Source of the DNA: Antedon bifida
Taxonomy: Eukaryota; Echinodermata; Crinoidea; Comatulida; Antedonidae
Length of the DNA: 64,000 nt
Reading direction: 5' to 3'
Assembly: GCA_963402885.1 (NCBI GenBank)
Contig: OY727097.1
Span: forward strand, 15,314,001-15,378,000
The notes beneath the pieces are model-generated. The model searched no databases, was not told the DNA's origin, and worked only from the letters and a program-made list of their open reading frames with translations. Within the stretch, counting starts at the first letter, position 1. Every line of letters starts with the position of its first letter. The position numbers and the translations under genes were made by a program. This document shows, piece after piece, positions 12,701 to 57,382 of the stretch.

Positions 12701-12892
12701 CGATTTTTCCGAATTGTATAAAAGAGAAACTGTCAAATATGTAGAGAAATTCAGAAATGTTCAAAACGGGGAAAGTTTTTGTCAAGAATGGCGCTACATC
12801 GTGTCGAAAATCTGTCCCGCATATAAAGACTATCTAATATATAGGGAATGTCTCAGTTATGGAAGCATTCAATTAATATCACTTTGTTTATA

Positions 12893-13922
12893 GCTGGAAA
12901 TTAATGATTCGGCGTGTACGTTTGATTTTAAACCATTGAGTTACTATAATAACTCAAGGATTCCATCATATGGTCGAAATTCCATGTAGAATTACTGCAT
13001 GTGGCGGTAGATTGATTCCCGCGTTCTGTGGTCGAAAAAAAACAAGAAAAAACAAGAAAAAACAAAACAAATAAAGAAAAGAAAATAAATAAAAAGGATA
13101 AAAAGAAGGAAAAGAAGCGACAATCTGTATTAATTAAATAATAAATATCCTGTAGGCCTACTCTTTCTTGATGTGGTAGTACTTTCTTTTGTGGTTTTTA
13201 TGGTTGGAATTTAATATAATATACTGTAGTTTTTAACGATTAACATCAGTAGCCATAATAAATCAGCATAGCAATTCACTCCCTGGTAAAATACACATTG
13301 ATAGAATAGTTGCTCACCAATAACATTTGTATTGACACAAAGTTTTTGAGAGAAATTTAACCAAAAAAATAAATCTAATTGAGCATGATAAACCTTACAG
13401 AAAATGCGAAGCACTGGCTGTAATCATATTTTAATATCAACATAATTATTAGCCCTAAACTATGCCTATTTGGAGTAGGAAATAACGTATTTAAAGCACT
13501 AATTAATACTATGTTACTAGTATGCAAACACTCGTATACTATTGTAAAATGAGAAAAAATAGGCCAGGATTTGTCAATGATATCACTTATATATCACTGG
13601 AAATTAATGATTCGGCGTGTGTACGTTTGATTTTAAACCATTGAGTTACTATAATAACTCAAGGATTCCATCATGTGGTCGATGGGACGGTAGATTAATA
13701 CCCGGGGTCTGTGGTCGGAAAAAAAAACAAACAAAAAAAAACAAATAAAGAAAAAATAAAAAGGATAGAAAGAAGGAAAAGAATTGACAACCTGTAATAA
13801 ATATATTATTAAATATTCTGTACTCTTACTGATGTGGTATAATAATGGCGGTGCCGGTACTACTTTCTTTTTATGGTTTTTATGGTTGGAAGTTAATATA
13901 ATATACTGTAGTCTTTAACGTT
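12893..13922 (+). repeat. Direct repeats in the foldback spacer
   Basis: About 12893-13237 and 13598-13922 are direct copies of one another. Both begin CTGGAAATTAATGATTCGGC, contain GTTACTATAATAACTC (a short palindrome), an A-rich AAAC/AAAG tract, and end near ATACTGTAGT(C/T)TTTAACG. No coding potential is evident. They separate the two inverted minisatellite arms. Confidence 0.75.
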
Positions 13923-14194
13923 AGATAAATGTATAGATTCAGTGAAAATTTACTTCAGAAGTAAATTGAAACCACATCCCTCACTAAATGTTTATTATAC
14001 TTAAAATTAGCTGATAATGGTGTTAATTATTTAATTAATAGAACACCTTTCCACAATGTAAAGTGTTAACATAGTACTGTTATTATTATGTACATTTTGT
14101 AATGTTTTCAGATTAGAAGTGTGAACTTTATTAAAGTTTTTAAAACAAAAAAAAATTCTTATGTTGTTTTAATGTTTTGCCTTCTCAGCTCTAT

Positions 14195-14622
14195 ATTGAC
14201 AGTTTCCCCATTCTGGACAGAAATTTCTCCATTCTGGACAAATCGGATTTCTCTATATTGGACAGCTTCCCTATTTTTGACACAGCATTTCCCCATCCTG
14301 GACAGAAATTTCCCCATTTTGGACACGATATAGTGCCACCACTTCCCCATCCTGGACAGAAATTTCCCCATTTTGGACACGATATAGCGCCACCACTTCC
14401 CCATCCTGGACAGAAATTTCCCCATTTTGGACACGATATAGCGCCACCACTTCCCCATCTTGGACAGAAATTTCCCCATTTTGGACAAATCGGATTTCTC
14501 TATATTGGACAGCTTCCCCATCTTGGACACGATTATAGCGCCACCTATCGCTTTTGTCCTTATTCTGGACAAAATATTTCCCCATTCTGGACAGAAATTT
14601 CCCCATCTTGGACAAAATTCAC
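14195..14622 (-). repeat. Right arm of foldback element, 21-bp array
   Basis: Reverse complement of 11984-12345, with one extra internal unit carrying the GCGCCACCACTTCCCC module (three copies against two). Identity over the outer 250 bp appears essentially complete, which points to recent formation or ongoing correction between arms. Confidence 0.85.
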
Positions 14623-14820
14623 CACACCTATTTGTCTGAGCAGGACAGCGAAACTGTCAATTTGCCACAAAAAGAATTGATAAATTATAACTGCTTTTAG
14701 TAGGCTGGAATTATATTGGTTTTACAGCCACAAACTGTCAGTACTTTGTTATCTAAAACTAATGTAGAAAATGTTATAATTTACAAGTCTATACCATGTA
14801 CAAATGCATCTCTTTACTTA

Positions 14821-34760: not shown

Positions 34761-35905
34761 TAATATTCTATTCTGTTCCGTTTATTCAGTAAGGCCTACA
34801 TTTCACTCAGATACGTGTTAATTTTCACTATGATCACACGATTACGAAATCAGCAACAGTTGACCACATACGAATGACAATCGGTTCTTTTTAGTGGGCT
34901 GAATTATTAACAATAATTGATTTAAACGGCCACCAACTGTCAGTACTCAGTTAATAAAAGTCCAAATCCCGCTTGTACAGAGAACTTGACATGAAAACTT
35001 TTACAGATACAATATCATTTCACTATATAAATCTTTGATATCATGTGTATATAAACAACACTGGATTTGTTTACAATTGTCATGTCACGGCAATACGATT
35101 GAGTTTCATAGGAAACAAAGTTGTAGAGATTATAAGTTTCTGAAATATACTGTAGTGCTGCTGCTGTGTTATCTGAGAAAGTTTATAATCTAATCACATT
35201 ATGTGTTCAATTATCTCAACACACAAATACCAATTGAAATGCCTTTTAAATATGTCTACTATAATCTTTTCCATACAAACAATAGTAACGCATATCCATC
35301 ATTACTAACAAGTAAGTTATCAGGGATAGTTATGGCTTCAGGTTGATGTGCGTACTTACATTTCCATCACATTGAACCCGTACGTTCTATCACTTAAACT
35401 ATTAAGATTACACACCTGTTCATGTGCGCCATATTATTGCTCATATATTTTATACCAAAAAAGAAATGTTGCAAGCACGGTTAATGTATTGATTCAACAT
35501 TACTTTGTTTACCAATTGGGGTTGTATATTCATGTGAAGTAATACTTATATTAATAAAGTCAACAATCGGGAAACCAAATTCCCAGATGTCTCTCTGTAT
35601 GCAATATTCTGCTACCATTAGAATAAACTGCATTGTCAACTTTATTCTTGGTTCTTAATAACAACAGGGGCTAAATTTGAACCAGAACACTGGGGTGGTA
35701 ACCCCAATTCATCACAAAAGATGCCCTGGGTTCTTTATAATCCCGTTTAAAACTAGTTGTGGCGCCAGGATATTCGCGACAGGGGGATATGCGAGCGAAG
35801 CGAGCATCACTTGGCTGATGGCCAGAGGACCGCCAAGGGGCCCGCGCCCCAGTATGGGTGAATCCCTCGGAAGCAACGTTCTAGCGTTATTTGAGGCCGT
35901 TTTAA
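34761..35905. other. Duplicated DNA up to the large inverted element
   Basis: About 34770-35050 matches 57195-57640, and 35095-35250 matches 380-520. 35668-35740 repeats part of the odd frame near 27000. 35745-35905 is the left half of the GC-richer repeat that is intact at 5110-5290. No gene is recognised. Confidence 0.55.
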
Positions 35906-36617
35906 TAGTCCAAGAGCATTAGGGTTTGACCCGGAAATTTCTGGTAACAAGCTAATTTTTTCAGGAAAGGTCGAGAACTATGATTGGAACATCATACTAA
36001 AAGTCCCGAAAAATCCTCCTTGTGCTCTCCGAGAAATCCAAGATGGCGTCCAAAATGGCTGCCATTTTAAATTGGTCTATAACTTTGTAACCGCTTGTCG
36101 TAGAGTATCGATTTTGGTGTCAAATAGTTCACAATATATACATTCCTATTTGCTCTAACAAAAAATGTTGTCAAAAAATGGCCGCTACTACAGTTTCTGG
36201 CAGTTTGACCTTTGACCTGGTCTTATCATATCTCGGTAATGGCTTGTCATAGAGAATTAAGATTAGGCCCAAATTATTCAGACCATGCATATTTTTATTT
36301 GGTGTAATGAAATATTTTATCCCAAAATGACCGGAAGTGAGGTTATTGACCTCTTATTGACCTATTCATATCTCTTTACCGTATCTCAAGAAATATTTGT
36401 CGTAGAGCATTACTTTTGGTGTCAAATTGTTTGGAACATATACATTTCTATTTAGTCTAATACAACAGTTTGCCCTCAAATGCTCGGAAGTAAGTTAATT
36501 TATTGAAAACTTTAAAAATCAAAGAGCTACATAGGCAGAGGATATGAATACTGTAGAAAAAATCTAAATTTTAACTCTGCCTTAAAACATGTTTTGGGCA
36601 TAGCACATCATCAGGTA
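35906..36617 (+). repeat. Left terminal inverted repeat of the 9.5-kb element
   Basis: Reverse complement of 44668-45390 at roughly 95 per cent by eye. The arm is built of about three diverged units of 130-145 bp. Each has a (C/T)ATATCT...GTCGTAGAG or GTCATAGAG block followed by TTTGGTGTCAAAT-like and TATTT(A/G)(C/G)TCTAA-like blocks. It also contains TGACCTTTGACCT at 36206-36218, a DR1-type nuclear-receptor half-site pair, kept in the other arm. Confidence 0.88.
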
Positions 36618-37435
36618 ACTTTGAGGGTAAATTTTCCTGTAAGGGTATGAACTATACAAAAAAACCCCCAAAATAATCATTTATTTAACTTCGATAGAAC
36701 AAAGAATATCATGGGACACGTTAATTGAAATTCTCATACTAGCTATGGTTGAAAAGTTATTGCTACAAAATGTCACCTATATGTAGATGTCATGAATACA
36801 TTTTAAATGCGTTATTCGTCTGTAACTCGCATTACAGTACATACGCGAATTAGTGCTTTTGTTGAAATCACGTCGTTATTTTTATTATTTATTATAGAAA
36901 TTATGATAATTATTTTTGTTCAGAGAAGTAGAAATTTTATGTAATTTAGGAAATGTATAGACTTTATGATACTGTGAGTGTGAGAATTAAATGTTCAGGT
37001 CATATACATTTCGCATGGAAATGCTCAATTGGCAGGGAACACTATGTACATGGCATATATTATACTCCGGATTGTCAAAAACTTATTATATTATTTGTAA
37101 AAATAATGCATTTTGAAACATGAAACCAGGTCATTCCTTGTTTTAAAAGAGAATGCACTCTTGAATGTTCTCTAACCTCATAACGTCATAACTTTTGGGC
37201 AAACATGCAACAACACCCATACAGATGAACATGATGATAATGATGTGAAAGAAGCAACAAACACCAAGATGTTGAAGATGCAACATCAGATGATGAATGA
37301 CTGTAACAGAATGCTGCTGTTCAATGTTGAAGTGATTTAAAGACCCTTTATTTTGCATATTTTTAATATTTAATAAATCATATATAGGGCATATGGCGAT
37401 ACTTTTTTCATCTTTAAACAGTTAAATATGTAACT
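36618..37435. other. Left interior of the 9.5-kb element, no gene
   Basis: This AT-rich stretch has no counterpart on the right side of the element and no recognisable protein. Open frames such as 37143-37358 are short and featureless. Confidence 0.4.
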
Positions 37436-37508
37436 GGGGGACTAGCTCAAATGGTAGAGCTCTCACTTAGCATGTGAGAGGTACCGGGATCATTGCCCGG
37501 GTATTCCA
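37436..37508 (+). tRNA. tRNA-Ala (AGC), possibly decayed
   Basis: A cloverleaf can be drawn: acceptor GGGGGAC/GTATTCC (one mismatch and two G-T pairs), D stem GCTC/GAGC, anticodon stem CTCAC/GTGAG with loop TTAGCAT (anticodon AGC), variable AGGTA, and T stem CCGGG/CCCGG with loop ATCATTG, discriminator A. No intron. The T loop departs from the usual TTCGANN, which would weaken the B box and the TFIIIC contact. The gene may therefore be a pseudogene or a passenger in the surrounding transposon. The A box TAGCTCAAATGG is acceptable. Confidence 0.75.
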
Positions 37509-37854
37509 ATCTATTTTTCATAGATTTCAGCAAGGACCAAATAAAATCTAAATCTGGAAAAGAAAATCTATGCATGCCGAGTAAAGAGCGTTTGACGTGA
37601 AATACCTAGGGTATATTCTCTTTTTATCATAAATAAGCCATACAACGAACATTTAAAGCAAGGAATGTTTCAAAATGCATTATTTTTACAAAGTCAACAA
37701 GGCCATATATTACATAGCCTATGTAAATACGTGAACGTGATTGGTTGAAACTGCGTCACATGACTATCGCTGCGAGGATCGTAAATCGTATATATCCTCG
37801 AGAACGATGATATTGACTGAGCAATTTTCGCGTAATTATCGTGTCCCCTGTGTA

Positions 37855-38060
37855 ATATTATACAGATATTGACTGCTTAGAGGTTAAATATAAGATTTGA
37901 CATCCCCGAGGGAATGATATTATGTTCGAGGGAATATATATTTCCCGAAGCGCCAGCTGAGGGAAATATATATTCCCCGAGAACATAATATCATTCCCAA
38001 GGGGATGTCAAATCTTATATTTAACCGATATAAAAGGCAATATCTGTTATATTATATAGC
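37855..38060. repeat. Long hairpin repeat inside the foldback module
   Basis: AAATATAAGATTTGACATCC, then GAATGATATTATGTTC and GGGAATATATATT are followed, after a loop near CCAGCTGAGG, by their reverse complements ending at 38022. The symmetry extends outward to ACAGATATTG/CAATATCTGT. Stem length approaches 95 bp. The inverted counterpart is at about 43800-44005. Confidence 0.8.
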
Positions 38061-38152
38061 CAAGAACAAGTCTGCTGGTGAAGCTAGGCTAGGCCTCCTA
38101 TTCTATAGTATTTGTATTGTATGTAAACAAGCCTCCTGCCTAGACACCTTAC

Positions 38153-38308
38153 CTTGCGAAGAATAATATACAGATAATTACTAATTAATGATTCCTTGGC
38201 AATAAAATATTCACTTAGGCCTAGGTCGTTTAAATTAACAGAAGAATTTCCATCAATAAGCCTATTAATAATAATATTATAATCAGGTAGGCCGAATAAA
38301 CAATTCAT
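38153..38308 (-). CDS. Possible first exon carried by the element, copy 1
   Basis: From ATG at 38308 the frame reads MNCLFGLPDYNIIINRLIDG, then SSVNLNDLGLSEYFIAKESL and SNYLYIILRK, ending exactly at a consensus donor, AAG|GTAAGG (complement of 38147-38152). The copy at 43543-43698 differs by Tyr to His in the visible protein, and both keep the frame and the donor. No family is recognised. It could be a first exon captured from a host gene, or the N-terminus of an element-encoded protein whose other exons are gone. No initiator or TATA box is evident upstream. Confidence 0.4.
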
Positions 38309-38489
38309 CGTCTTCTCTTCGAGGAGCTAGCCGAATCACCGGATGTTCAGCGCGTAGTTACTAGGTTACTACCGTGAGTATTGACCAATCACAAACGGTG
38401 TTTCATCACATTTAGGGAGGACTAATAACAAATGAGGGCGCTATGTATGCATAGTTTAAATAGTTTAGATGAATAATTTCTTGAAGCAA

Positions 38490-38562
38490 CTTCCGTGGCG
38501 CAGCGGCGGAAGCGTTGTCTTGCGATGGAGTGACAATTCCACCCGAGTTCAAATCCTGTAGA
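38490..38562 (+). other. tRNA-like box (pol III promoter-like), copy 1
   Basis: TGGCGCAGCGG resembles an A box and CGAGTTCAAATCC a B box, about 40 bp apart. Upstream TTCCG and the middle stem CGTTG/CGATG give a tRNA-like outline, but the anticodon loop is too short for a real tRNA. The inverse copy is at 43288-43361. It is probably the relic of a tRNA-derived sequence within the module. Confidence 0.5.
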
Positions 38563-38791
38563 TGACTTTTGTTTATTTATCGGCGAACGCGAGTGTTGCC
38601 ACACGAAAATTACACAGTCAATATCATCGAACTCGAGAATGTATATGATTAATGACAGGGGACACGATAATTACGCGAAAATTACTCAGTCAATATCATC
38701 GTTCTCGAGGATATATACGATTTACGATCCTCGAAGCGACAGTCATGTGACGCAGTTTCAACCAATCACGTTCACGTATTTACATAGGCTA

Positions 38792-38979
38792 TGTAATATT
38801 CTTTAATACATGAGAGACGTTTCTAGTAACACAATGCTTTTATTCTCTCGACATCATTGTTATCACAATCATTCGTGAGGTCTTCTATACTGAAGCCATG
38901 TTTTAGAGGTCTGTTGCCTTATGGGTATCCTACATACTATAGAGGGCGACATCATAATATATGGTGCCATCATATAACA
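38792..38979 (-). repeat. 3' LTR of the Gypsy element (188 bp)
   Basis: Identical to 42998-43192 except for loss of 7 bp (AGTTATT) after TTCTCT. Ends are TGTTATATG and GAATATTACA in the element's direction. The short length is within the range of small Gypsy LTRs. Confidence 0.95.
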
Positions 38980-38991
38980 TCCCTCTTCTTT
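38980..38991 (-). promoter_or_regulatory. Polypurine tract
   Basis: AAAGAAGAGGGA in element direction lies directly against the start of the 3' LTR. That is the expected place and composition for priming of plus-strand DNA. Confidence 0.85.
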
Positions 38992-39082
38992 AATTACTCA
39001 TAATGGTGTACAAATATAATTAAACTGTGGGTCTCATTTATCAATCATATTACAATCATAATAAAACAATTATAAGTTTTAT

Positions 39083-41953
39083 TTACAAATCTAATCTATT
39101 TGGTTTCTTAATTTTTCTGCCACTGCTAGAGCATGATGATGGTTTGTATTCTATAGTCTTGTAATGAGTAAGTGGTGTTTCTAGTATTATGTGTGTAAAG
39201 TGTTCGTTTGTTTTGCGGATGTGTGTTCGGTTTCTTCTTAGTGTTTTCTGGTTTTCTGTCAGTACTCTGTACGAATGTGGACTTGTTTTGTTTAGTATCT
39301 TCGCTGGGATCCACTGTGGGTTTTTGTCAGAGTGTCTGATTCTCACGCTTTCTCCTCTCTTTATTGGTTGAAGTGGTTTTGTATTTTCATCATGATATTG
39401 CTTCTGTTTGTCTTGTCGGTTTTTTAGTCGATTTCTTATTTCTTTTCTGGTTGGCATACTGTTGAAGTGTGGTCCGTTGTCGGTAATCAATTCTTGAACC
39501 ATCCCAAACTCTGAGAAGACATTTTTTATTATCGATATAACTGTCTCACTGTTTGATTGGTCTGCCGGTATTTTTCTTATGATTGGATATTTGGTGTAAT
39601 AATCTGCTATTAGGAGGTATTCTACTCTATTTATGTAGAATAGGTCAGCTGCGAGTATTTCCCATTCTTTGGTAGGGATTTTTCTCTTCAACATTGGTTC
39701 ATGTTGTTGTTTGTGTTTGTGTTGTTGGCATGATGGGCATGCTTTTATCATGTTTTCTATTTCCTCATTAATACTGGGCCAATGGATTGATGTTTTAGCC
39801 ATCAGTTGACACTTGGTTGTGCCTAAGTGGGATGTGTGTAGTTGTTTTAGGATGTCCTGTCTCATGACTTCTGGGATCACTACTCTGTTACCCTTTAGTA
39901 TTATTCCGTTCTCTGTTGTGAGTTCATCCCTGTATGGGAAGTATGGTCTTATTGTCTTATGTACAGATTTTAGTTTGTCTGGCCAGCCTTGCTGTATTAT
40001 ACTTCCCAATTTTATGAGAGTTGGGTCTTCCTTGGTCTTCTGCCTTATTTCTTCTTCTTTGGACTCTGAGAAATATGACAGTTGTATCTTTACTTCTTCT
40101 TCAATTTGGCTGTCATTTATAGGGTTTAATCTAGACATGGCATCTGCCAGGACCATTTCTTTGCCTGGTTTATACTTGATTGTCAGATCATATCCTTGTA
40201 GTCTCATTAGTAGTCTTTGTAGTCTTGGTGGTGCACACATTAGATTTTTTAGTTGGATCATCTCTAACGGTTTGTGGTCTGATTCCACAATGAATGAGTT
40301 TCCATACACATATGTGTGGAACCTCTCTACTGCGTATACTACCGCCAGTAGTTCTCTTTCAATGTTCGCATATCTTTGTTCCGCTTCTGTTAATGCCTTT
40401 GATGTAAACGCAACAACTTTTTCGTCTTGTATGAGTGCTGCTCCCACTCCAATCAGGGATGCATCCACTTGTAGTTTCAACTTTTTGTTAGGTTGGAAAT
40501 AGGTCAGTGTTGTCTGGTTACATATTGTTGACTTTATCTCTTCGAATGCTTTTTGTTGTGAGCCATTCCATTCAAATACATTATCTTTTTTCAGAAGTTC
40601 TCGGAGGGGTGCTGTTTTGTCTGACAGCTTGGGACAGAAGGGACTCATATACGTGGCGATGCCTAGGAAACTTTGTAACTCTTTAACATTCGTTGATGGT
40701 TTTATTTTGCTGATGGCTTCAATGCGCTTTGGGTCAGCATGTACTCCATCTTTATCATATATCATACCAAAGAAATTTATTTGCGGTCGCTTTATTTCAC
40801 ATTTCTCTGCATTGAATACAAGCCCATATTCTCTAGCGGTTTCCATCAGGTCCATTAAGTTTCGATCATGTTCTTCTTCTGTTTTCCCAAATACAGCAAC
40901 GTCATCTGCGATGCCTGTGGCTCCGATGCATTTCTCCAATATTTGATCCATCTTATGTTGAAAAACGTCTTGGCTGACATTCAGTCCAAATGGTAATCTT
41001 AGGAATCTGAATCTTCCAAACCCTGGAGTGTTAAATGTGGTAAGATAACTGGATTCTTTGTCAAGTCTTATGGACCAATATCCATGTCGTGCATCTAGTT
41101 TAGAGATAAACTTTGCCCCACTAAATTTATGTGTTATCTCATCTAGGGTTGGTGTGTGATGGTATGTGCGTTTTATAGCTTTGTTTAAGTCCTTAGGATC
41201 TAAACATATCCGCCATCTCCCATTTGGTTTCTGTGAGTAGGCCAAACTTGAAACCCAATCCACTGGTTTCTCTACTTTCTGTATGACATTTAATCTCATC
41301 ATTTCATCCAACTCAGCCTTTATGTCATTTTTTATCGCTAATGGACATGACCTTGGTGCGTGTATGACAGGTGGTACCGTTTCGTCTATAACTATTTTGT
41401 ACGTACCCTCAAACTTGCCAATGCCTTCAAATCTGTCTGGATAGAGTCTTTTTATGTCCTCTACATCCTTGATTTTGTCATTTACTTCGACTGCACAGTT
41501 TATCTGTATTATCTTCAGAGTCTTTAGCGTCGGTAGTCCCATTATAGCTGGTCCCTGTACCTCTGCAATATAAAACTTTGCATTTGTGTGTAAGTTATTG
41601 AAGTAACATGGGATGTGTATGTAACCATAATGTTTGATTTGTGCTCCGTTATACGCTGTGACTTTTACATTAGATTTGTTAACATATCTATCATTAGGTA
41701 CATTATTGCTCATGTTTTTAGGAAACATAGCTCTATACATTCTCAGTGGTAATATATTACCCTCTGCACCTGTATCTACTTTTACTTTCAGAAAAGTTGG
41801 TTTGTTACGGTTTATTTCAATTTTGACATTTGTGAACACTTCTGTGTCACCATCTTTAGCGTTTATCTGGCTTATTTTAATTGCGTCAAATGTAATATTA
41901 GATTCATCTTCACTGTCGCAATCGCTATCATTGCTTTTGTTTATACCATGCAC
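39083..41953 (-). CDS. pol: Gypsy pol polyprotein with integrase core deletion
   Basis: A 956-codon frame counted from an internal Met; real translation probably enters by frameshift from gag. Protease: VDTGAEG (catalytic Asp at about residue 60). RT: KLDARHGYW (Asp 287), LPFGL, and GIADDVAVFG (Asp 350-351, Ile-Ala-Asp-Asp variant). RNase H: LQVDASLIGVG (Asp 497) and a VESDHKPLE block near 556-564. Integrase: zinc finger HTSHLG...ACPSCQ (706-742), AADLF (Asp 770) and ITDNGPHFNS (Asp 825). Straight after this the sequence jumps to MPTRKEIRNRLKNRQ, in frame. The usual segment holding the third catalytic residue, Glu, is absent (junction near 39457). Integrase is therefore predicted inactive although the frame is open. 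Confidence 0.93.
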   Translation of the reverse strand: MHGINKSNDSDCDSEDESNITFDAIKISQINAKDGDTEVFTNVKIEINRNKPTFLKVKVDTGAEGNILPLRMYRAMFPKNMSNNVPNDRYVNKSNVKVTAYNGAQIKHYGYIHIPCYFNNLHTNAKFYIAEVQGPAIMGLPTLKTLKIIQINCAVEVNDKIKDVEDIKRLYPDRFEGIGKFEGTYKIVIDETVPPVIHAPRSCPLAIKNDIKAELDEMMRLNVIQKVEKPVDWVSSLAYSQKPNGRWRICLDPKDLNKAIKRTYHHTPTLDEITHKFSGAKFISKLDARHGYWSIRLDKESSYLTTFNTPGFGRFRFLRLPFGLNVSQDVFQHKMDQILEKCIGATGIADDVAVFGKTEEEHDRNLMDLMETAREYGLVFNAEKCEIKRPQINFFGMIYDKDGVHADPKRIEAISKIKPSTNVKELQSFLGIATYMSPFCPKLSDKTAPLRELLKKDNVFEWNGSQQKAFEEIKSTICNQTTLTYFQPNKKLKLQVDASLIGVGAALIQDEKVVAFTSKALTEAEQRYANIERELLAVVYAVERFHTYVYGNSFIVESDHKPLEMIQLKNLMCAPPRLQRLLMRLQGYDLTIKYKPGKEMVLADAMSRLNPINDSQIEEEVKIQLSYFSESKEEEIRQKTKEDPTLIKLGSIIQQGWPDKLKSVHKTIRPYFPYRDELTTENGIILKGNRVVIPEVMRQDILKQLHTSHLGTTKCQLMAKTSIHWPSINEEIENMIKACPSCQQHKHKQQHEPMLKRKIPTKEWEILAADLFYINRVEYLLIADYYTKYPIIRKIPADQSNSETVISIIKNVFSEFGMVQELITDNGPHFNSMPTRKEIRNRLKNRQDKQKQYHDENTKPLQPIKRGESVRIRHSDKNPQWIPAKILNKTSPHSYRVLTENQKTLRRNRTHIRKTNEHFTHIILETPLTHYKTIEYKPSSCSSSGRKIKKPNRLDL

Positions 41954-41979
41954 GTTTCTCTTACTTCTGTTAGGTGCAT

Positions 41980-42744
41980 TTATATATTTGCCCTTTTGTT
42001 TGTCATTACGTTTTGACCTACATGCTCTACTAAAATGGTTTTCCTACCACAATTATTGCAGGACATGCCAAAAGCTGGACATTTACCATATTCATGTGAT
42101 CTAGTGCATCTTGAGCATGGTTTACTTTTATCTCTATCTTTGGTTCTATCATGTTTATAATTATTAGACATACCTAATTGATCTACCGCTACTTGGTGAT
42201 CAGCTTTGAGCTCTTTCCCTAAGTTTCTCGACGCTTCTGATGCCTTACATATTTTCATGCACTTATCTAAATTTAAATCATCTTCTCTAAGCAATCGTTC
42301 ACGCAATTGATTGTCCAATAGTCCACAAACAATTCTATCCCTGATGAGGGATTCCTCAATTTCACCAAACTCACATGTCTTGCTCTTGTTCTTTAGGTCG
42401 GTCACATATTGGTCTATCTTCTCACCTGGTATCTGGTTTCGTGAAAAGAAAGTGTGTCGTTCAAATGTAATGTTTTTCTTGGGGTTGCAATATTCCTCAA
42501 ATTTGTGCATAACTGTGTTTAATCTCATCTTCTCAGCTTCATTTTCAAATTTAAATGCGTTATATACATCTAAGCCTTGTTGCCCAATAGTATGGAGTAG
42601 TAATGACGTTTGCGTTTCACTTGGTTTTCGTGACATTCCACTGGCAATGTTATATAGTTCAAATCTCTGTTTGAATCTCTTCCAATTCTCTGATATGTTG
42701 CCTGTCGATATATTTAATGGTTCTGGCTGATTTAGGTTCGCCAT
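41980..42744 (-). CDS. gag: Gypsy gag
   Basis: I take the start at 42744 (MANLNQPEPLNIS) and not the upstream Met at 42795, because the conserved-looking Gag body begins there. The middle (NWKRFKQRFELYNIASG, RHTFFSRNQIPGEKIDQYV, IRDRIVCGL) is a retrotransposon capsid-type region. A basic linker leads to a zinc knuckle, CSRCTRSHEYGKC (C-x2-C-x3-H-x4-C), and the start of a second, CNNCGRK. The second knuckle is completed only in the -1 frame, which is the pol frame, so gag and pol appear to be joined by a -1 shift at about 42030. The shift site sequence is GGAAAAC. Confidence 0.9.
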   Translation of the reverse strand: MANLNQPEPLNISTGNISENWKRFKQRFELYNIASGMSRKPSETQTSLLLHTIGQQGLDVYNAFKFENEAEKMRLNTVMHKFEEYCNPKKNITFERHTFFSRNQIPGEKIDQYVTDLKNKSKTCEFGEIEESLIRDRIVCGLLDNQLRERLLREDDLNLDKCMKICKASEASRNLGKELKADHQVAVDQLGMSNNYKHDRTKDRDKSKPCSRCTRSHEYGKCPAFGMSCNNCGRKTILVEHVGQNVMTNKRANI

Positions 42745-42982
42745 GATCAATATTAATTTTTTAATATTGTCAGTTGTTGCATACAGTGGTAACAAAATGT
42801 GTATGGGCTATTTTTTGCCTTCTGCTATCCGAATACAAAATCCAATTCAGTTCTCTCCGCACGTGTGTACTCTCAACAACACGTTTTACTAATCTATTCG
42901 TGCGGCGGCGTGTACGCTAGCCTATTTATTCTTCTAGCCTAGTATAGCTTATCGATTGACTTTATTATATATTTCAATCCTA

Positions 42983-42997
42983 CCAATCAATCCACCA
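42983..42997 (-). promoter_or_regulatory. Primer-binding site
   Basis: TGGTGGATTGATTGG in element direction directly follows the 5' LTR. It starts with TGG, the complement of a tRNA 3' CCA end. I cannot name the primer tRNA. Confidence 0.75.
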
Positions 42998-43192
42998 TGT
43001 AATATTCTTTAATACATGAGAGACGTTTCTAGTAACACAATGCTTTTATTCTCTAGTTATTCGACATCATTGTTATCACAATCATTCGTGAGGTCTTCTA
43101 TACTGAAGCCATGTTTTAGAGGTCTGTTGCCTTATGGGTATCCTACATACTATAGAGGGCGACATCATAATATATGGTGCCATCATATAACA
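42998..43192 (-). repeat. 5' LTR of the Gypsy element (195 bp)
   Basis: Full-length LTR, 7 bp longer than the 3' LTR and otherwise identical. It should carry the element's promoter; I see no convincing TATA box in so short a sequence. Confidence 0.95.
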
Positions 43193-43287
43193 CCTGTCAT
43201 TAATCATATACATTCTCGAGTTCGATGATATTGACTGTGTAATTTTCGTGTGGCAACACTCGCGTTCGCCGATAAATAAACAAAAGT

Positions 43288-43361
43288 CATCTACTGGATT
43301 TGAACTCGGGTGGAATTGTCACTCCATCGCAAGACAACGCTTCATGCGCTGCGCCACGGAA
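43288..43361 (-). other. tRNA-like box, copy 2
   Basis: Minus-strand counterpart of 38490-38562, with GGCGCAGCGCATGAAGCG in place of GGCGCAGCGGCGGAAGCG. B-box-like CGAGTTCAAATCC is unchanged. Confidence 0.5.
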
Positions 43362-43542
43362 GTTGCTTCAAGAAATTATTCATCTAAACTATTTAAACTA
43401 TGCATACATAGCGCCCTCATTTGTTATTAGTCCTCCCTAAATGTGATGAAACACCGTTTGTGATTGGTCAATACTCACGGTAGTAACCTAGTAACTAGTA
43501 CGCTCTAAACATCCGGTGATTCGGCTCCTCGAAGAGAAGACG

Positions 43543-43698
43543 ATGAATTGTTTATTCGGCCTACCTGATCATAATATTATTATTAATAGGCTTATTGATG
43601 GAAATTCTTCTGTTAATTTAAACGACCTAGGCCTAAGTGAATATTTTATTGCCAAGGAATCATTAATTAGTAATTATCTGTATATTATTCTTCGCAAG
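43543..43698 (+). CDS. Possible first exon carried by the element, copy 2
   Basis: Fifty-two codons from ATG at 43543 to the donor AAG|GTAAGG (43699-43704). Only one visible substitution separates it from copy 1 (DYN to DHN). Codons upstream to 43516 are also open (MIRLLEEKT) but copy 1 lacks that Met. Function unknown; see the entry at 38153-38308. Confidence 0.4.
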
Positions 43699-44005
43699 GT
43701 AAGGTGTCTAGGCAGGAGGCTTGTTTACATACAATACAAATACTATAGAATAGGAGGCCTAGCCTAGCTTCACCCAACCCAGCAGACTTGTTCTTGGCTA
43801 TATAATATAACAGATATCGCCTTTTATATCGGTAAAATATAAGATTTAACATCCCCTCGGGATGATATTATGTTCTCGGGGAATTATATATCCCTCAGCT
43901 GCCGCTTCGGGATATATATATTCCCTCGAACATAATATCATTCCCTCGGGGATGTCAAATCTTATATTTCACCTCTAAGCAGGCAATATCTGTATAATAC
44001 ATGGC

Positions 44006-44530
44006 TGCAGTCGCGTGCGTAAATTTGAGTTATTGTTTACTGACCGACCGACCGACCAACTGACCGAAATTGCTGAAAATGTTTTAAAATGTCCACATTT
44101 TTAAAAACATTTATATTTTCCCCCAAGTATTAAATAATATCCAGTATTAAATAATATCCAGTGTCAAAATAACGAAAAAATATGAATATGAGTTAGTGTT
44201 TACCGACTGTCCAACCGACCGAAATTGCTAAAAAGGTTAAAAAATGTTGAAAAATGTTTAAAAACATTTATATTTGCCTACAAGTATTAATATCCAGTGT
44301 CAAAATAACAAAAAAATATGAATATGAGTTAGTGTTTACTGACTGACCAACCGACCGAAATTGCTGAAAAAGTTAAAAAATGTTGAAAAATGTTTAAAAA
44401 CATTTATATTTGCCTACAAGTATTAATATCCAGTGTCAAAATAACGAAGAAATATGAATATAAGTTAGTGTTTACCGACCGACATAGTGAGCAATAGAGT
44501 CGCGTTTGCACGCAACTCAAAGTTGCATAT
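44006..44530 (+). repeat. ACCG repeat with three tandem units of about 140 bp
   Basis: It starts ATGGCTGCAGTCGCGTGCGT. Then the block GAGTTAGTGTTTACCGAC, (CCGACCGAAATTGCT), TGTTGAAAAATGTTTAAAAA, TTGCCTACAAGTATTAAT and AAATATGAATAT is repeated at about 44030, 44190, 44325 and 44460. It ends GTCGCGTTTGCACGCAACTC. Related single copies lie at 20903 and 31945. Confidence 0.8.
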
Positions 44531-44667
44531 AAATGGTCGGATATGTGCTGTGTACATATAGGTATTTGCCAATTTTCTTTTGTTTACTTAACCAACTTTG
44601 ATTAGCCACTGACAGTTATTCTTTGTAATTTATTGACTTTATATTTTCTTTTTGTAACAATTCACTC
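44531..44667. other. Right interior of the 9.5-kb element
   Basis: A short AT-rich stretch with nothing recognisable, between the ACCG array and the right terminal inverted repeat. Confidence 0.4.
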
Positions 44668-45390
44668 TACCTGATGATGTGCTATGCCCAAAACATGTTT
44701 TAAGGCAGAGTTAAAACTTTTTTTTTACCTACATTATTCATATCCTCTGCCTATGCAGCTCTTTGATTTTTTAAGTTTTCAATAAATTAACTTACTTCCG
44801 AGCATTTGAGGGCAAACTGTTGTATTAGACTAAATAGAAATGTATATGTTCCAAACAATATGACACCAAAAGTAATGCTCTACGACAAATATTTCTTGAG
44901 ATACGGTAAAGAGATATGAATAGGTCAATAAGAGGTCAATAACCTCACTTCCGGTCATTTTGGGATAAAATATTTCATTACACCAAATAAAAATATGCAT
45001 GTTCTGAAGAATTTGGGCCTAACCTTAATTCTCTATGACAAGCCATTACCGAGATATGATAAGACCAGGTCAAAGGTCAAACTGCCAGAAACTGTAGTAG
45101 TGGCCATTTTTTGACAAAATTTTCTGTTAGAGCAAATAGGAATGTATATATTGTGAACTATTTGACACCAAAATCGATACTCTACGACAGGCGGTTACAA
45201 AGTTATAGACCAATTTAAAATGGCAGCCATTTTGGACGCCATCTTGGATTTCTCGGAGAGCACAAGGAGGATTTTTTGGGACTTTTAGTATGATGTTCCA
45301 ATCATAGTTCTCGACCTTTCCTGAAAAAATTAGCTTGTTACCAGAAATTTCCGGGTCTGCCTATACTTATGAACTAATTCTCTTGGACTA
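44668..45390 (-). repeat. Right terminal inverted repeat of the 9.5-kb element
   Basis: Inverted partner of 35906-36617. It has about 10 extra bases near the outer end (TGCCTATACTTATGAA). AGGTCAAAGGTCA at 45067-45079 is the conserved DR1 motif. Confidence 0.88.
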
Positions 45391-45613
45391 TAATCAGATT
45401 TAGAAGAGGAAACTTTTGTCACTTTTTATGGTACATGTAAAAAAAAAACTGTGGGCAAAAAATATTGCACGAGGTCCGATGGTATGCGTGACTGTGTTTA
45501 AATAATTGCTTTCAATTTTAAATTTTTTTTATTTAAAGTTCAGTATAAGTCTATATTTATCGGCTAAATTTTATCATAGAACATTTATACGAACCGCGAA
45601 CGTATGATGTACC
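45391..45613. other. Right flank, continuation of the interrupted repeat
   Basis: TAATCAGATTTAGAAGAGGA and GAGGTCCGATGGTATGCGTG continue the repeat that is intact at 5250-5400. No gene. Confidence 0.7.
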
Positions 45614-46497: not shown

Positions 46498-47523
46498 TAC
46501 GAAAGCCCATTAATGCCATTTTAAGTATATGTTTTTCGAACGTAATCCGTTCAAACGAATTAGTAATCCGTTCAAACGAATTGCAACACTGCAACAAGTG
46601 CCATTTAAAGTATATGTTGTAATTCGTTTGAACGGATTATTAATCCGTTCAAACGAATTACGAATTTGTTTAAACAGATTAATAATCTGTTTAAACAAAT
46701 TAGTTCAAACGGATTAGTAATTTGTTTAAACGGATTACTAATTTGTTCAAACGAATTACTAATTCGTTCAAACGAATTAGTAATCCGTTTAAACAAATTA
46801 TTAATTTGTTTAAACGGATTACTAATTATACTATTATTATTAAACGGATTACAGATTATTAATCTGTTTAAACAAATTAGTAATTCGTTTGAACGGATTA
46901 GTAATCTGTTAAAACGAATTAGTAATCCATTGAAACGAATTGCAACATATAAAAACAAGTGCCATTTAAAGTATATGTTGTAATTTGTTTAAATATATTA
47001 ATAATCTGTTACGAATTAGGAATCCGTTCAAACGGATTAGTAAATTGTTTAAACGGATTACTAATTTGTTCAAACGAATTACTAATTTGTTTAAACAGAT
47101 TAATAATCTGTTCAAACGAACTGGGTATCCGTTCAAACGGATTAGTAATTTGTTTAAACGGATTACTGATTTGTTCAAACGAATTACTAATTCGTTCAAA
47201 CGGATTATTAATTTGTTTAAACGGATTACTAATTTGTTCAAATGAATTACTAATTCGTTCAAACAGATTAGTAATCCGTTTAAACAAATTAATAATTTGT
47301 TTAAATAAATTAATATATTTGTTTAAACAAATTACTAATCTGTTTAGTAAACGAATTACAACATATATTTTAAATGGCACTTGTTGTATATGTTGCAATT
47401 CGTTTGAACGGATTACTAATTCGTTTGAACAGATTATTAATCCGTTCAAACGAATTACTAATTCGTTAGAACGGATTACGTTCGAAAAACATATACTTAA
47501 AATGGCATTAATGGGCTTTCGTA
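46498..47523. mobile_element. Foldback-like element with 21-bp palindromic array
   Basis: The ends TACGAAAGCCCATTAATGCC, ATTTTAAGTATATG and GTTTTTCGAACGTAATCCGT are mirrored exactly at 47470-47523. TAATCC lies directly outside on both sides (46492-46497 and 47524-47529). The interior is an array of about 21-bp units of the form ATTAGTAATCCGTTCAAACGA, itself nearly palindromic. It is interrupted three times by a block containing AAGTGCCATTTAAAGTATATG (46590, 46955) or its inverse (47360). These internal blocks resemble the element ends, so it may contain nested copies. No protein-coding gene. Confidence 0.85.
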
Positions 47524-47529
47524 TAATCC

Positions 47530-48404
47530 ATACCCACAACGCAGTTCAAGTTATGGAAGGCCGATGAGAGTTGGTTTGTTTACATCCTATCGCTGCCTAA
47601 AACTCTCACATGTAGGATTAAAAATTGAACTCTGACGTAAAGCTATATTATTTGTAAAATAAACATCTAGGCCTATTACCGTACCACATACAACAGAACA
47701 ATGATGTATTAATAAGGCCACGTCGGCGAGAAAGTTTGTTTCGCCGTTGGTTCTTCTACTCTAGGGCCTAGCTGGGCTATAATTTCTACCGAAAACAACA
47801 GGCCTAAAAAAGCACATGCAAAACATCGTTAGCCTGGACTGGGATGGATGTAACGGTGTACTTGTAACGTAGAATCCTGGAGTCTCTCGGTATAATTCTC
47901 TCTAATCGATTAAAAAAATAATCGGTTAATAACCGAATATTCCTGCTCAGCAGAAACAGGCCCAGTGGGTAGACTTGTAAAATGGAGTTGCGAATGAATT
48001 GCCGTTTCTTACAAAGGGAGCATACGTACCGCCTCTCGTAACTACGCATTTTGGTCCGTGGATGTGTATAGCATGGCCCTCGGATGTCGACGCGTGAGCT
48101 GGGCCAACTTCTAAATATAGTTACTGTATAAATGTTTCTTACAAAGGGACACCGCCAGACAAGTGCGTCCTATCACTAACGAGTAACTTGATTCACATTT
48201 TGGTCCTTGAAACTTTGATACAGCGCAGATATCGACACGTGAACCGCAATGAAAATGAGACGTTTTACTATAGTTACTAGAAATTATTTTGATAAAATAA
48301 ATTATTAAATATAATAATAAATATTAGTAGGGCTAATAATAATTTTTCTCAGAAATTATGAGGACGGCGCTTCTGCACACGTGACGGTTTATGAGTGAGA
48401 ATCA
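47530..48404. other. Segmental-duplication DNA without a gene
   Basis: About 48040-48400 matches 540-835 (ACGCATTTTGGTCC, ACAGCGCAGATATCGACACG). 47530-48040 is unrecognised. The frame 47804-48049 on minus has no recognisable domain. Confidence 0.5.
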
Positions 48405-48620
48405 ATAAGGCATTTATCGAAAATGCAGACCGTCTTAAAATTACTTGACATGTTTCGAGAAATCTATTCTCATCATCAGAACTGTAATCAAAGCCTAGAG
48501 TACTTGTATACGTACTACACAGTTGCGTTTAAATGAGTCAATAATTAGCATGAGAATAGATTTATCGAAACATGTCACGTAGTAATTTAAGACGGTCTGC
48601 ATTTTCATTACATGTCTTAT
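48405..48620. repeat. Hairpin MITE-like repeat, copy 2
   Basis: Paralog of 834-1040 with the same inverted ends (GGCATTTATCGAAAATGCAG and its complement). A LINE tail inserted just beyond it at about 48636. Confidence 0.75.
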
Positions 48621-48635
48621 GATATGTTATGGTCT

Positions 48636-48979
48636 AACCACTGTTAAGATTATTAAATCTTTGGAGGTGTGCTACAACAACTCATTGAGAATATTGCTAG
48701 GCTTTACCTAAGCACCGTAGTGCTAGTAATATGTTTGCCACGAGGAGAATTCCTTCTTTCTATGAGTATGTACGCAAGTGCGTCTATGGTTTTAGATTAA
48801 GAGTTGTTAATAGTGAAATCTGGTTAGGTGTACCATGAACTATTGTTCCGATATTCAAATCTCTACACTAAGTGTGAAAAAATCCTATTTTAGTTTGATT
48901 TTCCGGTTTTGTATTATTTGTTGTTGTATATATAGTATATATGGAATATTTATTCTGAAATAAAGTGATCAAATCAAAT
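48636..48979 (+). mobile_element. LINE 3' end, 5'-truncated
   Basis: Plus-strand codons read IKSLEVCYNNSLRILLGF and, after a frameshift, RSASNMFATRRIPSFYEYVR and KCVYGFRLRVVNSEI, the YNNSLR...RSAS.MF...IPSF block at the C-terminus of many invertebrate LINEs. The tail is AAATCAAATCAAATC. The copy at 1035-1062 runs straight from CTTATGATAT to TATTGATTATCAC without it. Confidence 0.8.
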
Positions 48980-51935
48980 CATATATTATTGATTCTCACT
49001 CGTAATTTTGGTGGTATTATATGTTTATGTAATTAATACACAGTGAAAAGGCTTATTTTAGTATCCTATAGTAATACATTTTTCTATATAATTTAAAGAG
49101 AAGATGGAATTTAAAATCAGTTACAAAAGCCGACGATACGAGAGAATTACATGTTTTAAAAAAACACCCACTTGTTATTTTTTAAATACATTGCACATCG
49201 GCGAGGTCCAATGGCATGCGTGACTGGCGAAACAACGCAACAAAAATGTTGGCTGAACAAAAATTGCATGTTTTGTTGTACTGTAGGCCTATCAGTAGGC
49301 CTACAATGAAACGTGTATTTTATGTACCCAACGGTACAAAGTTTCATACAATTTAATCGTAATACAGTAATTCAGCCTAGATCGTGAACATAATTCGTAC
49401 GCTTTTGCTGTAGCGTACGTATACACAGTACACGACGTACAGGTACCCGTCGGTAAACTTCGCCGGGGAAGTAACTATACGCATTTTGGTCCCTGGATGG
49501 AACAATTGTGTATTACGCGTAAACCGTGTATTCTACGATGCCACTGGATCGGTCACTTAATGATAATAATTTCTTTAATTTTCTAATTCATCATGTGTTT
49601 GTAATTACTACTTTAATTGTACTGATTGGAATAATTAATCAGTATTTAATAATGCTTGCCTTCTAATCAATGTTAGTTACATTGGAAACCTCATCCAAAT
49701 GATGCGATGTAAATCCACTCAACAATTTGTTGAATAGCAAGAGAAGACATGCGTCGGCTAATTCACTTGCTATTGTTTGTCTTTTTTTAACAATATTTTG
49801 ATGACGAAGCAACAGTTACTGTATAGTCAAAGTGACAATAGTTATAATAATTATTGTTTCAGATTTGTAATAATTACGTCAAGTATAGCCTCTTCCCTAG
49901 TAGCTATGTCAACTACTTGACTTGACTATTATTATTGGTATATGCACGGTTAAATCGCCTATGACACCAACACAAGCATAAAACAACTATATTCTACAAA
50001 TAAACATGTCAGGAATAGACAATGTATTCGCTTAGTATATAAATTATACCAATTTCTTTATGTAACTGCTGTTTTCAGTATGCTGCTATTTACGTACATG
50101 ATACAGCAACACCTTCCCCGTGAGATCATGTTTACGATAATATGTAAAAATAATGTTAAACATCAGAGATGTTATCTATCGGGTTGCCAGTTATATAGTA
50201 AAAACAAATAATACTAGAATATAAAAAGTACATAATGAAAAAAAATACAACTATACTCATTTTAAATCAATTGGAGCTCATCAGTCATACGTTGTAGTGA
50301 TTTTGGATTTGACACAAAAATTTTTAAAATATTTTAATTTGTTTTAAAAAAAGAGGCGTATAAAATTAATTTGCATGATTGATTTCTGTAATATAAATTC
50401 TGTAAAAGCATTGTTTCCAGTTAAAAATATGTAAAATGACAAGAATTTACTCATGGTTGTATGGTGGCGCCTTCCCACGTATCATTTAATCGCATCGCAT
50501 CCTATTACTATTGAAAACGAATTGAAACATTTTAACAAGCTTCTTATGATGGTCACACTCATCGTCAGATCTATGTATAGTAATGAGAAATATACAAACA
50601 ATGATGTTGTTGTGATGTCGTGGGTGGGTGTTAGGTGTGGCGGCGTTCATTCAGGGAGGCATTTGTTGGTAACATTAATTTTATAATAAAATAAATTCCC
50701 CTAGATATGAACAAGTACAACACTGTATTTGATATTATCAAGAAGTGATAACAGTAAATAATTGTATGAAAATACTTGGTAAATAAATAGATATAGCAGT
50801 CAATGAATTATTCAACAAATATAATTGTATTTGTGTTATAGGCCTAATACAGAATTGTGTGTATAAATATATGTGGCGTGGCGTTTATTAGATGATGGAG
50901 GTTGAATATTCCAAAGATGATTTATGGGGGAGAGGGCGTTTATGCAAATAAATGCGGTAGGCCTAATTGGTATAATCAATACATCAAATTCCAAATAATG
51001 ACAATCACTAGTGGGCCATTTCGGCATAAAGAATACGTTTTAAACGGCTTGCAACATGGGCCAAAGTATCTCGGGTCTTAACGGCGATACACATGCAGAT
51101 AGCGCGCAACCTGTTCAAACCTAACATCAACTCAACAACTTGGCTACCATTCGGCTATATCGAGATTTTACCTGATTTCAAATACATCTATGATTATGGC
51201 TATAATCAGTTCTCCCGATGTAGGCATAATATAATTTTTACCCTGTTTATGTTATTTAAAATTGTATATACTGATTTTACAATTTCCCTCGCAATATAAT
51301 TCGATGATGTTTTAATATAATTGATTTGTTGATCGTTTGTTTGCACAAACAAAAATGTGATGTGACGATATGGACATGATGATGTCATAGAACTACCATA
51401 TTTGGGCACATCACACTTTTTTTGTCAAACTAATTTTATAGTGTAGACAGAGCTTTAAATGTTACGCGTGGCCGTAAAAAAAGCAAAACAAACATTGGAG
51501 GGGAGAAAAAAACTCGGAAGGTGCAAAATATTATTAGTAAAACGCATAATAACATTGCAGTAATATTTATTAATTCATAAAGTTTATAAAATATTTAAAT
51601 TTTAAAAATTATTACAAAGTGCGACAGATAGTTATTACAAAGTGCGACAGCTCGATTACTACAAGTGCGACAGATAGTAATTATATGCGATGTGGCTTTT
51701 TTTTCAAGACAGTAGGCCTACTTATCAGGAATCGACCCTATTTATGTCCTTTCTTGACTTTCGGGATCATTAACTTTTTTTATAGTATTTTATAAATGTA
51801 AAACAAATAAGTGTTTCTTTGCCTGAAATGTAAACTTCATCCGGTAGTGCTAACTAGACTTAATGTAAACTAGAAAGCCACTCCGAGAGTGCATACCTCC
51901 GCCTACTGTAAAATTCTCCTACATAAGATTTCTCC

Positions 51936-54899: not shown

Positions 54900-57382
54900 G
54901 CTGACTACAATTATATTATAATATTTATGTTCATTATCAGTTGTATATTTACAGTATGATGCTACTCTGTATTTTGCTTTATTATTTGTGGAAATAAATA
55001 TTATAATATTATAATTAAATTAAATTAATGCGCCGTGTTCTTTATATCTTTACATAGATTATAATTGTTTTTCAATAAGCCGTGGGGAGGATTCAGGTAA
55101 TTTCTCTTAGTATTAAAGGGTAACACCGCGGCTTTAAAATGTATGCTTATTATAAAATATAACCTTTTAATCAACATTGGTAATAACCGTGCCTAATTTT
55201 AGACAGAACTCAGGCAAAAGCTAAGTCGCTTCTTTAAACAAAAAAAAGTTGTTCTATAAGACAATACCACAGTATGCATGTGAAGTGGAACTAATTCGTC
55301 TTAAAAATACTAGTTTAAAAATATCATAATTAAACTCAACCTTTTAAATATCTGATAATTAGAGCTGTGCGCGCGCAAATTAACAATATAAATGAATATT
55401 TATTTACTAAAGCTAACATTATGTTTTCTATTCGAGAAACGTTGTTGTCATGGGAACACACTAAGTGGTTGGTGTAACTTCACACTAACGGTATATTGAA
55501 ACATTATATTAATTAGTCTCCTTTACATAGACCTTGGTCATATGCGATGATTTGAAATTCAGTTTAGTATTGATGTTACTGAGGTGTAGTAGTATGCCAC
55601 ATGCAGTGTGGATTGTTGAACATTTCAATTTATTGATGATAAAAAGTATATTATTATTGTAACCGAATTAGTCATGACATACGATGAATTTAAATCAGTT
55701 TTTGCATCATGTTATGAGGTATAGTAGTATTATATTATTATTGTAACCGAATTAACATTTTTAAAGTTTTATAGAATACAGATACTGGTTCGTAATGTCC
55801 GACACTCCACACTAAACATGACCATGCATTTAATACTAAACATTGTATTACATTAACATGTCAGAATGCTATAATGTACTTGGTATCGAAACTATACTAA
55901 ATAACCAAAAGGTGACATACACTTTTGTCAAATCATATACTGTTTTGTATCGTTGGATAGATTTGAACTATGAAATTATTTTAAAAGTAAAATTATTTGT
56001 ACATTATAAACGATGTAGTCAATCTTTGTTTGTCATTGAAAGTAATGGTAAATGTATTATTTGTATAGTGTCCCATATCGTTTATGAACGTGTTATAATG
56101 TTGATTCTGTTCTGGTTCGCTATGTGTAAAAGTGAAGATCAAAATTTTAAAATGTTAGATTTAATCGTGATCTTTGAAATTGTAATTATTAATATTGTCT
56201 CAATGTTAATATTTAAAGTAATCTTTTCTTTATTTTTTATGTCATTTGACCCAAGCCTAAATAATATGAAAGTAATCTTTAGAAAATAAATAGTACATAT
56301 CTATAATCCGAATATGGATATTGGTATAATGAATAACTAAATGACTTTCTTTCTGGGCTTCCGATTTAAGTGAAGTAGACATCATTTTATTATTACCTAC
56401 AGTAGTAACGTTCTACCGCTAATTTTATTGAAGATAATCATGTTACTACTAATCACCAACCATAACATCGTTGATAGAGAACCAGATGTAAACAACAGAT
56501 GCATCAGAGGCCATTGGATCCGACGACGAGGAACCCAAACCATCAACAGAGACGAAGGCGCCCACCAGTCACGTGAATGAACCTGTCATATCTTCTGAAG
56601 GATCCTTCTGAGAAGGACAGCGAAACTGCCAAGCAGGTTAGTTTCACTAATTGGGTTTTTTTTCGAAAAGAATTAATAATTCACATGCCGTATTGTTACA
56701 TAAAATACAGAATGTACATAATCTTCGGGAATCCATAGTAATTATTTCATTAACATGCATAGGGTCTAGGCTAACACAAAAATCTGAAAAGAGGCCTAGA
56801 AATCAATATAGGAGAAGTGGAATGCTACCGGCAGTCAACATAGCCATATATTCTATTTAATCCCTACTGACCACTCTATGCTTTTTTGCATAGACTACAC
56901 CCCACTTCAAGTCGTTTCCTAATACTAATACCGGTACGTGTAATTTTCACATGATATCCAGCTCGCTAGACCGAATTGACCAAATTCGTTTCACTTCCCA
57001 TAAAAATCATGTCTACTATTCTGTTGTACCATGATACTATAATACATTTCAAACATTCTTGTTTTAAAGATTTCGATATCTTCTCGCCTCTGTTTATCAT
57101 TACTGGCTCAAAATAATCCACGTCAACATTGGCAAATGTTGGTGTATCGCATGTTTTGAGTTAGTTTTATCTTTTCTATGTATATTTAATAAGCGTTTTC
57201 TCTGTTTATCCAGTAAGGTTCATTCAGCTTTGTTGGCATGATACTTCTATCACTGTGACCATAATTCAAATGAGTATCTTGAATAACGAAATCAGCAATA
57301 GTTGGTCCCAAAGAAATGAAAAATAGTTGCTTTTTAATAGGCTGGAATTGCTTTTACAGCCACAAAAACTGTCAGTACTAGG
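54900..57382. other. Segmental-duplication DNA without a supported gene
   Basis: About 54970-55490 matches 10240-10700, and 55640-56600 matches 11030-11960. 57195-57370 matches 34775-34960. The longest frame, 55843-56289, is disrupted in the copy at 11190-11590, so I do not call it a gene. Around 56600 the sequence is the uninterrupted version of the site occupied by the foldback element at 11973-14632. Confidence 0.6.

Follow-up and report, generated by a model that had tools for sequence, protein, structure and literature searches.

A tRNA-Ala(AGC)-bearing family of probably non-autonomous DNA transposons behind an apparent 9.5-kb composite element in Antedon bifida

Two described systems are close to the element discussed here. 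According to PMC2213677, non-autonomous PIF/Harbinger-like elements of Medicago truncatula contain nested Gypsy-like insertions, and one such unit reaches 21,696 bp from end to end. Tetris, a foldback element of Drosophila virilis, is portrayed in the available text of PMC4079207 as having long terminal inverted repeats (TIRs) with internal repeats of about 220 bp, a non-coding middle and no transposase that could be found. The element considered in this work lies in a 64-kb stretch of Antedon bifida DNA, hereafter the window (C10:15314001-15378000 of a 315.6-Mb assembly in 27 contigs; G+C content 33.9%), where it appears as a 9.5-kb composite with long inverted ends. It is very probably a copy of a young, non-autonomous DNA transposon family of the cut-and-paste type, with a length of about 3.2 kb, TIRs of about 0.7 kb, a tRNA-Ala(AGC) gene and variable 3-bp target duplications, which was later enlarged to 9.5 kb by nested insertions.

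The borders of the element are sharply defined. The 11-bp ends TAGTCCAAGAG (35906-35916) and CTCTTGGACTA (45380-45390), each with one exact occurrence in the window, are perfect inverted repeats, and TAA is found on both outer sides, at 35903-35905 and 45391-45393, as an initial annotation made from the letters alone had claimed. The arm lengths of about 712 and 723 bp given there also hold. Aligned over their full length, the arms agree at 97.7%, the differences being 16 substitutions and 17 gap columns, and a 690-bp portion (35928-36617 against 44668-45357) matches at 97.4% without gaps; between the 11-bp ends and these matching portions, 11 bp on the left and 22 bp on the right have no ungapped match. 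The three diverged subunits noticed earlier are present in the left arm, with a spacing of 149 and 153 bp instead of the proposed size of 130-145 bp, and over 86 bp the second and third resemble the first at 66% and 76%, respectively. The empty site proposed in the same window is confirmed as well: when the flanks of the element are joined through one TAA, they align with 5220-5384 (86%, E 6e-49), so that the host sequence is a dispersed repeat of which the window holds an uninterrupted copy.

The same ends recur throughout the genome. A search with the terminal 215 bp gave at least 177 first-look candidates, and the best 40, which were scored, match at 97-100% identity. The 17-bp end has 110 exact occurrences, compared with none for the pattern read backwards. 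Among the 100 ends listed out of these 110, 76 form 38 neighbouring inverted pairs and 24 are unpaired. The pairs mostly span 3116-3601 bp (32 of 38), and the others 3864 (twice), 4323, 4679, 7974 and 9485 bp, the last and longest being the window copy. From the 39 other scored places, 20 sister loci of 10 kb were read whole. Both ends are found in 19 of them (L092 has no right end), which gives 20 complete elements with the window copy included; 16 of the 19 complete sisters measure 3153-3338 bp, and L102, L088 and L086 are longer. The genome search for further copies with the same ends, which the initial annotation had called for, was thus successful, as all but one of the 20 complete copies share these ends, the exception being L098, which starts AAGTCC. 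Fixed inverted ends in many copies (110 ends, and both arms in 20 elements) are as expected for a non-autonomous class II DNA transposon.

Some members of the family depart from the common plan. In L093 (1501-4808), the middle part is inverted between the arms, as would be expected from recombination between inverted ends. The diverged relative L106 has the same first 11 bases, followed by TATTAG, and resembles a short foldback, with 80% similarity between the inverted stretches at 237-470 and 601-810; its other frames resemble simple repeats, and no right end was found in it when up to two mismatches were allowed. In L107, a 10-kb stretch that stops short of an unpaired end, the longest frame has 137 amino acids. 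The arm has no match among plasmid records, and an Rfam search at gathering thresholds found nothing. The 17-bp end has 30 places in viral contigs, which are attributed to chance, because the backwards pattern gives 46 and arm alignments in the 30 loci reach at most 24 bases.

The family appears to have jumped very recently. In the comparison of 10 copies in full, L089, L090 and L096, on three contigs and with the duplications ATA, TAT and TAG, are identical over 3298 bp, and L100 and L104, at separate sites with the duplications TTT and TTA, are identical over 3338 bp. Identity at separate sites points to recent movement. The divergence between the two arms of a copy was considered as a clock and rejected, since the two arms of a copy can differ even where whole copies are closely similar to one another. 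Young, near-identical copies are useful markers of ongoing transposition and can guide the search for the transposase.

Perfect duplications flank 19 of the 20 complete elements. Exactly 3 bp are duplicated in 18 cases, 6 bp in L091, where the duplication lies in a TAA run, and none in L098; a target duplication of fixed length is typical of class II DNA transposons. The triplets are TAT (four times), TAA (three times), TTA and TTT (twice each), and AGT, GTT, AGC, ATA, TTC, TAG, CAG and TAC (once each). Thus, the length of the duplication is fixed and its sequence is not, save for a bias to T at the first position (14 of 19). The TWA preference assumed in the initial annotation is not borne out, as TAA or TTA accounts for 5 of the 19 duplications and the other 14 are not TWA. 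With it, the earlier tentative link to PIF/Harbinger loses its basis, because the TAA of the window copy is one draw from a variable set of triplets. Other copies without a TAA duplication or without coinciding ends had been named in advance as contrary evidence; the former exist, and the latter expectation did not materialize.

No transposase was recognised in the element, in keeping with a non-autonomous class II transposon. The typical copy L090 has no stop-to-stop frame longer than 94 amino acids, and the short frames of the window copy that were compared with Pfam, 6 of 10 of which come from or reach into the left core (36618-37709), are without a match. Longer sister copies (L086, L088 and L105) were checked as possible sources. 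The extra sequence of L086 is a nested long interspersed nuclear element (LINE), with reverse transcriptase and endonuclease domains above Pfam cut-offs. The candidate frame of L105 has 253 amino acids and a GIY-YIG match below the cut-off, and that of L088 has 347 amino acids and immunoglobulin matches, each below the Pfam cut-off; neither was accepted as a transposase. The L088 frame (5436-6479, minus strand) lies in an insert of about 1.45 kb, contains by eye a membrane-spanning-like stretch, and is possibly a captured host receptor fragment. An autonomous partner with the same ends was not found among the copies and frames examined. The earlier statement that no transposase is visible therefore stands for these frames, and movement in trans, suggested with it, remains the best explanation of how the family would spread.

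Candidate enzymes were also looked for in the genome as a whole. The domain DDE_Tnp_4, of Harbinger-type transposases, is abundant, with 150 scored places out of at least 215 candidates, and all of these places are more than 5.6 kb away from any of the 100 ends listed. PF07592 (ISAzo13-type) has no match in the genome, but it has none in any of 14 control genomes either. A cluster of near-identical DDE_Tnp_4 matches, most of them with one TAA stop, occupies about 0.7 Mb of G000 C8 (21.5-22.2 Mb).

Two assignments to a superfamily are compatible with a non-autonomous family of 3.2-kb copies. We see about even chances that the family belongs to a superfamily with 3-bp duplications other than PIF/Harbinger, such as Zator, Academ or a CMC relative, and that the autonomous copy is absent, rare or diverged in its ends. 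Academ and CMC relatives count among the superfamilies with 3-bp duplications, and the absence of a fixed duplication sequence fits such an origin; the point against it is that no transposase was seen with these ends. For Zator, duplications of 3 bp, as found here, are stated in the accessible portion of PMC10045372.

A placement in PIF/Harbinger or a close relative appears distinctly improbable. It would account for the TAA of the window copy, for the generally A/T-rich 3-bp duplications and for the abundance of DDE_Tnp_4, and a Harbinger relative without TWA preference could be envisaged, since the wider Harbinger/ISL2EU group makes no duplications or duplications of 1-4 bp (PMC10045372, in the same portion). 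The predominance of duplications that are not TWA speaks against it, as does the distance of more than 5.6 kb between the listed ends and any scored DDE_Tnp_4 place. Moreover, the ends start with TAGTCC and not with G, as do the plant PIF/Harbinger ends tabulated in PMC2213677, which are the only ends with which TAGTCCAAGAG was compared. The family is not filed under PIF/Harbinger, because neither its duplications nor its ends agree with this group.

It is highly unlikely that the 9.5-kb composite moves as one unit, in trans and with all of its cargo, as the initial annotation held. Intact ends and a duplication do bound it, but the secondary block of 6.3 kb that makes up most of its length is missing in 19 of 19 complete sisters read, and its length is matched by none of the other 37 listed pairs. 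In 17 sisters, base 37709 joins directly to the stretch from 43997, with TA counted once. L093 has the same join at the block site and its middle part inverted, and L091 has a join with a small deletion (37682-44011 unmatched), so that the join is exactly at the block site in 18 of 19. The uninterrupted core stretch is also present at window positions 20902 and 31944: aligned with the joined flanks, these regions score 108 and 110, and none of 261 control stretches exceeds 27. A further region around position 21600 reaches 71, but its alignment does not extend across the join. Since the block is absent from sisters and the core is uninterrupted in them, 37710-43999 is a secondary insertion at TA, and the lack of substitutions between the long terminal repeats (LTRs) of its Gypsy element suggests that it arrived late. 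The tRNA-Ala gene, the inverted foldback modules and the Gypsy element of the earlier cargo list are all present, and only the first of them belongs to the family core; the 'exon-like frames' of that list probably correspond to the Gypsy element's two long frames on the minus strand. An assembly artefact as the source of the palindrome at 35906-45390 has next to no probability, as the two arms differ in sequence, the same arms occur at many sites with different duplications at each, and no point in its favour was found.

The preferred reading, a 3.2-kb transposon copy enlarged by later insertions, suggests the following course of events. A transposase encoded elsewhere would recognise the shared ends, presumably through binding sites in TAGTCCAAGAG and the neighbouring sequence, and this copy, then about 3.2 kb long, inserted into the dispersed repeat at TAA. 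A foldback element would then have inserted into a TA of the core of this copy. The Gypsy element and two short inverted modules would have come to lie within the block, bringing the whole to 9.5 kb.

Several points weigh against this reading. The Pfam comparison, made at E 0.1 and without a match, covers 10 of the 25 listed short frames of the window copy, and the complete reads cover 20 of the 39 other scored copies. As no source of transposase was found, action in trans is something we infer. The arms give no age, because arm differences are inherited within subfamilies. L098 has both an altered first base and no perfect duplication. In addition, the tRNA region lies between the two units of a perfect 28-bp inverted repeat (37094-37121 and 37665-37692), so that the core itself is perhaps layered.

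Table 1. Window coordinates of the transposon copy, the block inserted into it and the related empty site
Feature	Position	Strand	Remarks
Paralogous empty site of host repeat	5220-5384	+	Single TAA; joined flanks align 86%, E 6e-49
Left target duplication TAA	35903-35905	.	Duplication read at both flanks
Whole interrupted transposon copy	35906-45390	+	9485 bp; 3195 bp minus secondary block; ends, arms, duplication, empty site, sister copies
Left TIR	35906-36617	+	712 bp; three diverged subunits from 36095, 36244, 36397
Family core, left part	36618-37709	+	Found in sister copies
tRNA-Ala (AGC) gene, part of family core	37435-37509	+	ARAGORN call
TA, left target duplication of block	37708-37709	.	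Uninterrupted site in sisters and at window 20902, 31944
Secondary insertion block	37710-43999	.	6290 bp including right TA; missing in all 19 complete sisters read
Short module S1	37710-37855	+	146 bp between two TA; putative miniature inverted-repeat transposable element (MITE)
Left arm, foldback element F	37858-38659	+	Inverted match to 43193-43999
Second short-module copy S2	38655-38796	-	Inverted relative to S1
Gypsy/Ty3-like LTR element	38792-43192	-	LTRs 38792-38979 and 42998-43192
Gypsy pol frame	39083-42043	-	Pfam: reverse transcriptase (RT), RNase H, integrase zinc finger; integrase core weak, partial
Upstream Gypsy frame	41980-42807	-	No Pfam match; gag-like by position only
Right arm, foldback element F	43193-43997	-	Inverted match to left arm
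Family core, right part	44000-44667	+	With 136-bp tandem units; adjoins 37709 directly in sister copies
Right TIR	44668-45390	-	723 bp
Right target duplication TAA	45391-45393	.	Duplication read at both flanks

Within the block, we interpret two long inverted stretches (37856-38659 and 43193-43999; 798 aligned positions, 16 mismatches, 98.0% identity) as the two arms of one foldback element flanked by TA duplications. They enclose the Gypsy/Ty3-like element, which has LTRs and a pol frame with RT, RNase H and an integrase whose core is under the Pfam cut-off; among solved structures in the PDB, Ty3 is the best match of this frame. The LTRs differ by no substitution in 188 aligned bases and by one 7-bp indel, so that this insertion is probably recent. 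The copy nevertheless looks damaged, as the integrase core match is partial and below the cut-off and the frame departs from the conserved region soon after TDNGPHF. The element has CCTGT at its right side, without a matching copy at the left.

The short modules S1 and S2 (compared over 37707-37851 and 38655-38799) differ by 3 mismatches in 145 positions. We considered S1-P-S2 as a single element with 145-bp ends and prefer, from the window copy, to see two short TA-flanked modules. This preference has two grounds: S1 touches TA at both ends and S2 at its outer end, and a deletion between two ACAGG motifs (microhomology) after the insertion of S2 would explain why the left duplication of the Gypsy element was lost.

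In this family, the core regularly includes the tRNA-Ala(AGC) gene. ARAGORN detects it within the element in 9 of the 10 sister loci that were scanned, the miss being L088, where the gene is truncated, and 12 of 19 sister copies have the 75-base stretch without any change. When 106 bp around the gene were searched against the genome, there were at least 209 candidates, the best 40 of which, once scored, match at 92-100%. Special conservation of the gene was considered and is not shown, as its divergence is not clearly below that of other core parts: the substitution rate is 0.15-0.77% in five bins over 37368-37542, 0.30-0.37% in two core bins at 36768-36867, and 3.59% in the following bin, 37493-37567, which includes part of the gene. 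Despite the ARAGORN call, the gene may be a pseudogene, since its acceptor stem, judged by eye, has one G-A mismatch and two G-T pairs. The 28-bp inverted repeat around it measures 599 bp end to end, has no flanking duplication visible by eye, and raises the possibility that the gene arrived with a smaller, older module.

A narrow literature search for DNA transposons that carry tRNA genes yielded nothing comparable. Dada elements reportedly target tRNA genes. If the genes are functional, a tRNA gene fixed in a DNA transposon would offer a simple route for the number of tRNA genes in a genome to rise. It is conceivable, if rather unlikely, that a recently active family without transposase distributes a tRNA-Ala(AGC) gene, together with the promoter, over dozens of places in the genome, feeding the host tRNA pool or using RNA polymerase III, and that it is mobilised by a superfamily with sequence-independent 3-bp duplications not yet tied to TAGTCC ends.

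Other repeats are present in the window. A large inverted repeat of tandem units (spacings of 54 and 85 bp) occupies 11971-14680; its longest arms are 288 bp and 99% alike, and the long frames on both of its strands look like repeat frames and not like genes. An array of 21-bp tandem repeats at 46555-47523 also has long frames on both strands. Two pairs of dispersed repeats, with pieces 85-96% alike, are formed by 10465-11621 and 55240-56330 (about 44.7 kb apart) and by 822-1888 and 48392-49930 (47.6-48 kb apart).

What looked like a 9.5-kb composite is thus replaced by a clean family with defined ends, 3-bp duplications and near-identical copies, and its insertion layers, with their visible empty sites, provide a tidy example of nested insertion. 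The parts that deserve specialist attention are the tRNA gene and the question of the superfamily.

With respect to target duplications of 3 bp, the family is like Zator as described in PMC10045372; no Zator-type transposase was tied to the ends of the family. Like the Medicago truncatula elements, as far as PMC2213677 could be consulted, the family is non-autonomous, makes 3-bp duplications and has copies enlarged by nested Gypsy-like insertions. However, the duplications of the Medicago elements are TTA or TAA, and their TIRs, in the table of that paper, are 12-22 bp long and start with G, whereas in the window family the arms measure 0.7 kb, the ends read TAGTCC and the 3-bp duplications vary. 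With Tetris the family shares long TIRs with internal repeats, a non-coding middle domain and the lack of a transposase that could be found, but Tetris duplicates 8-10 bp, and the available text of PMC4079207 makes no mention of a tRNA gene. On the whole, the family works like other non-autonomous TIR elements, and the nesting itself is ordinary and involves no new mechanism.

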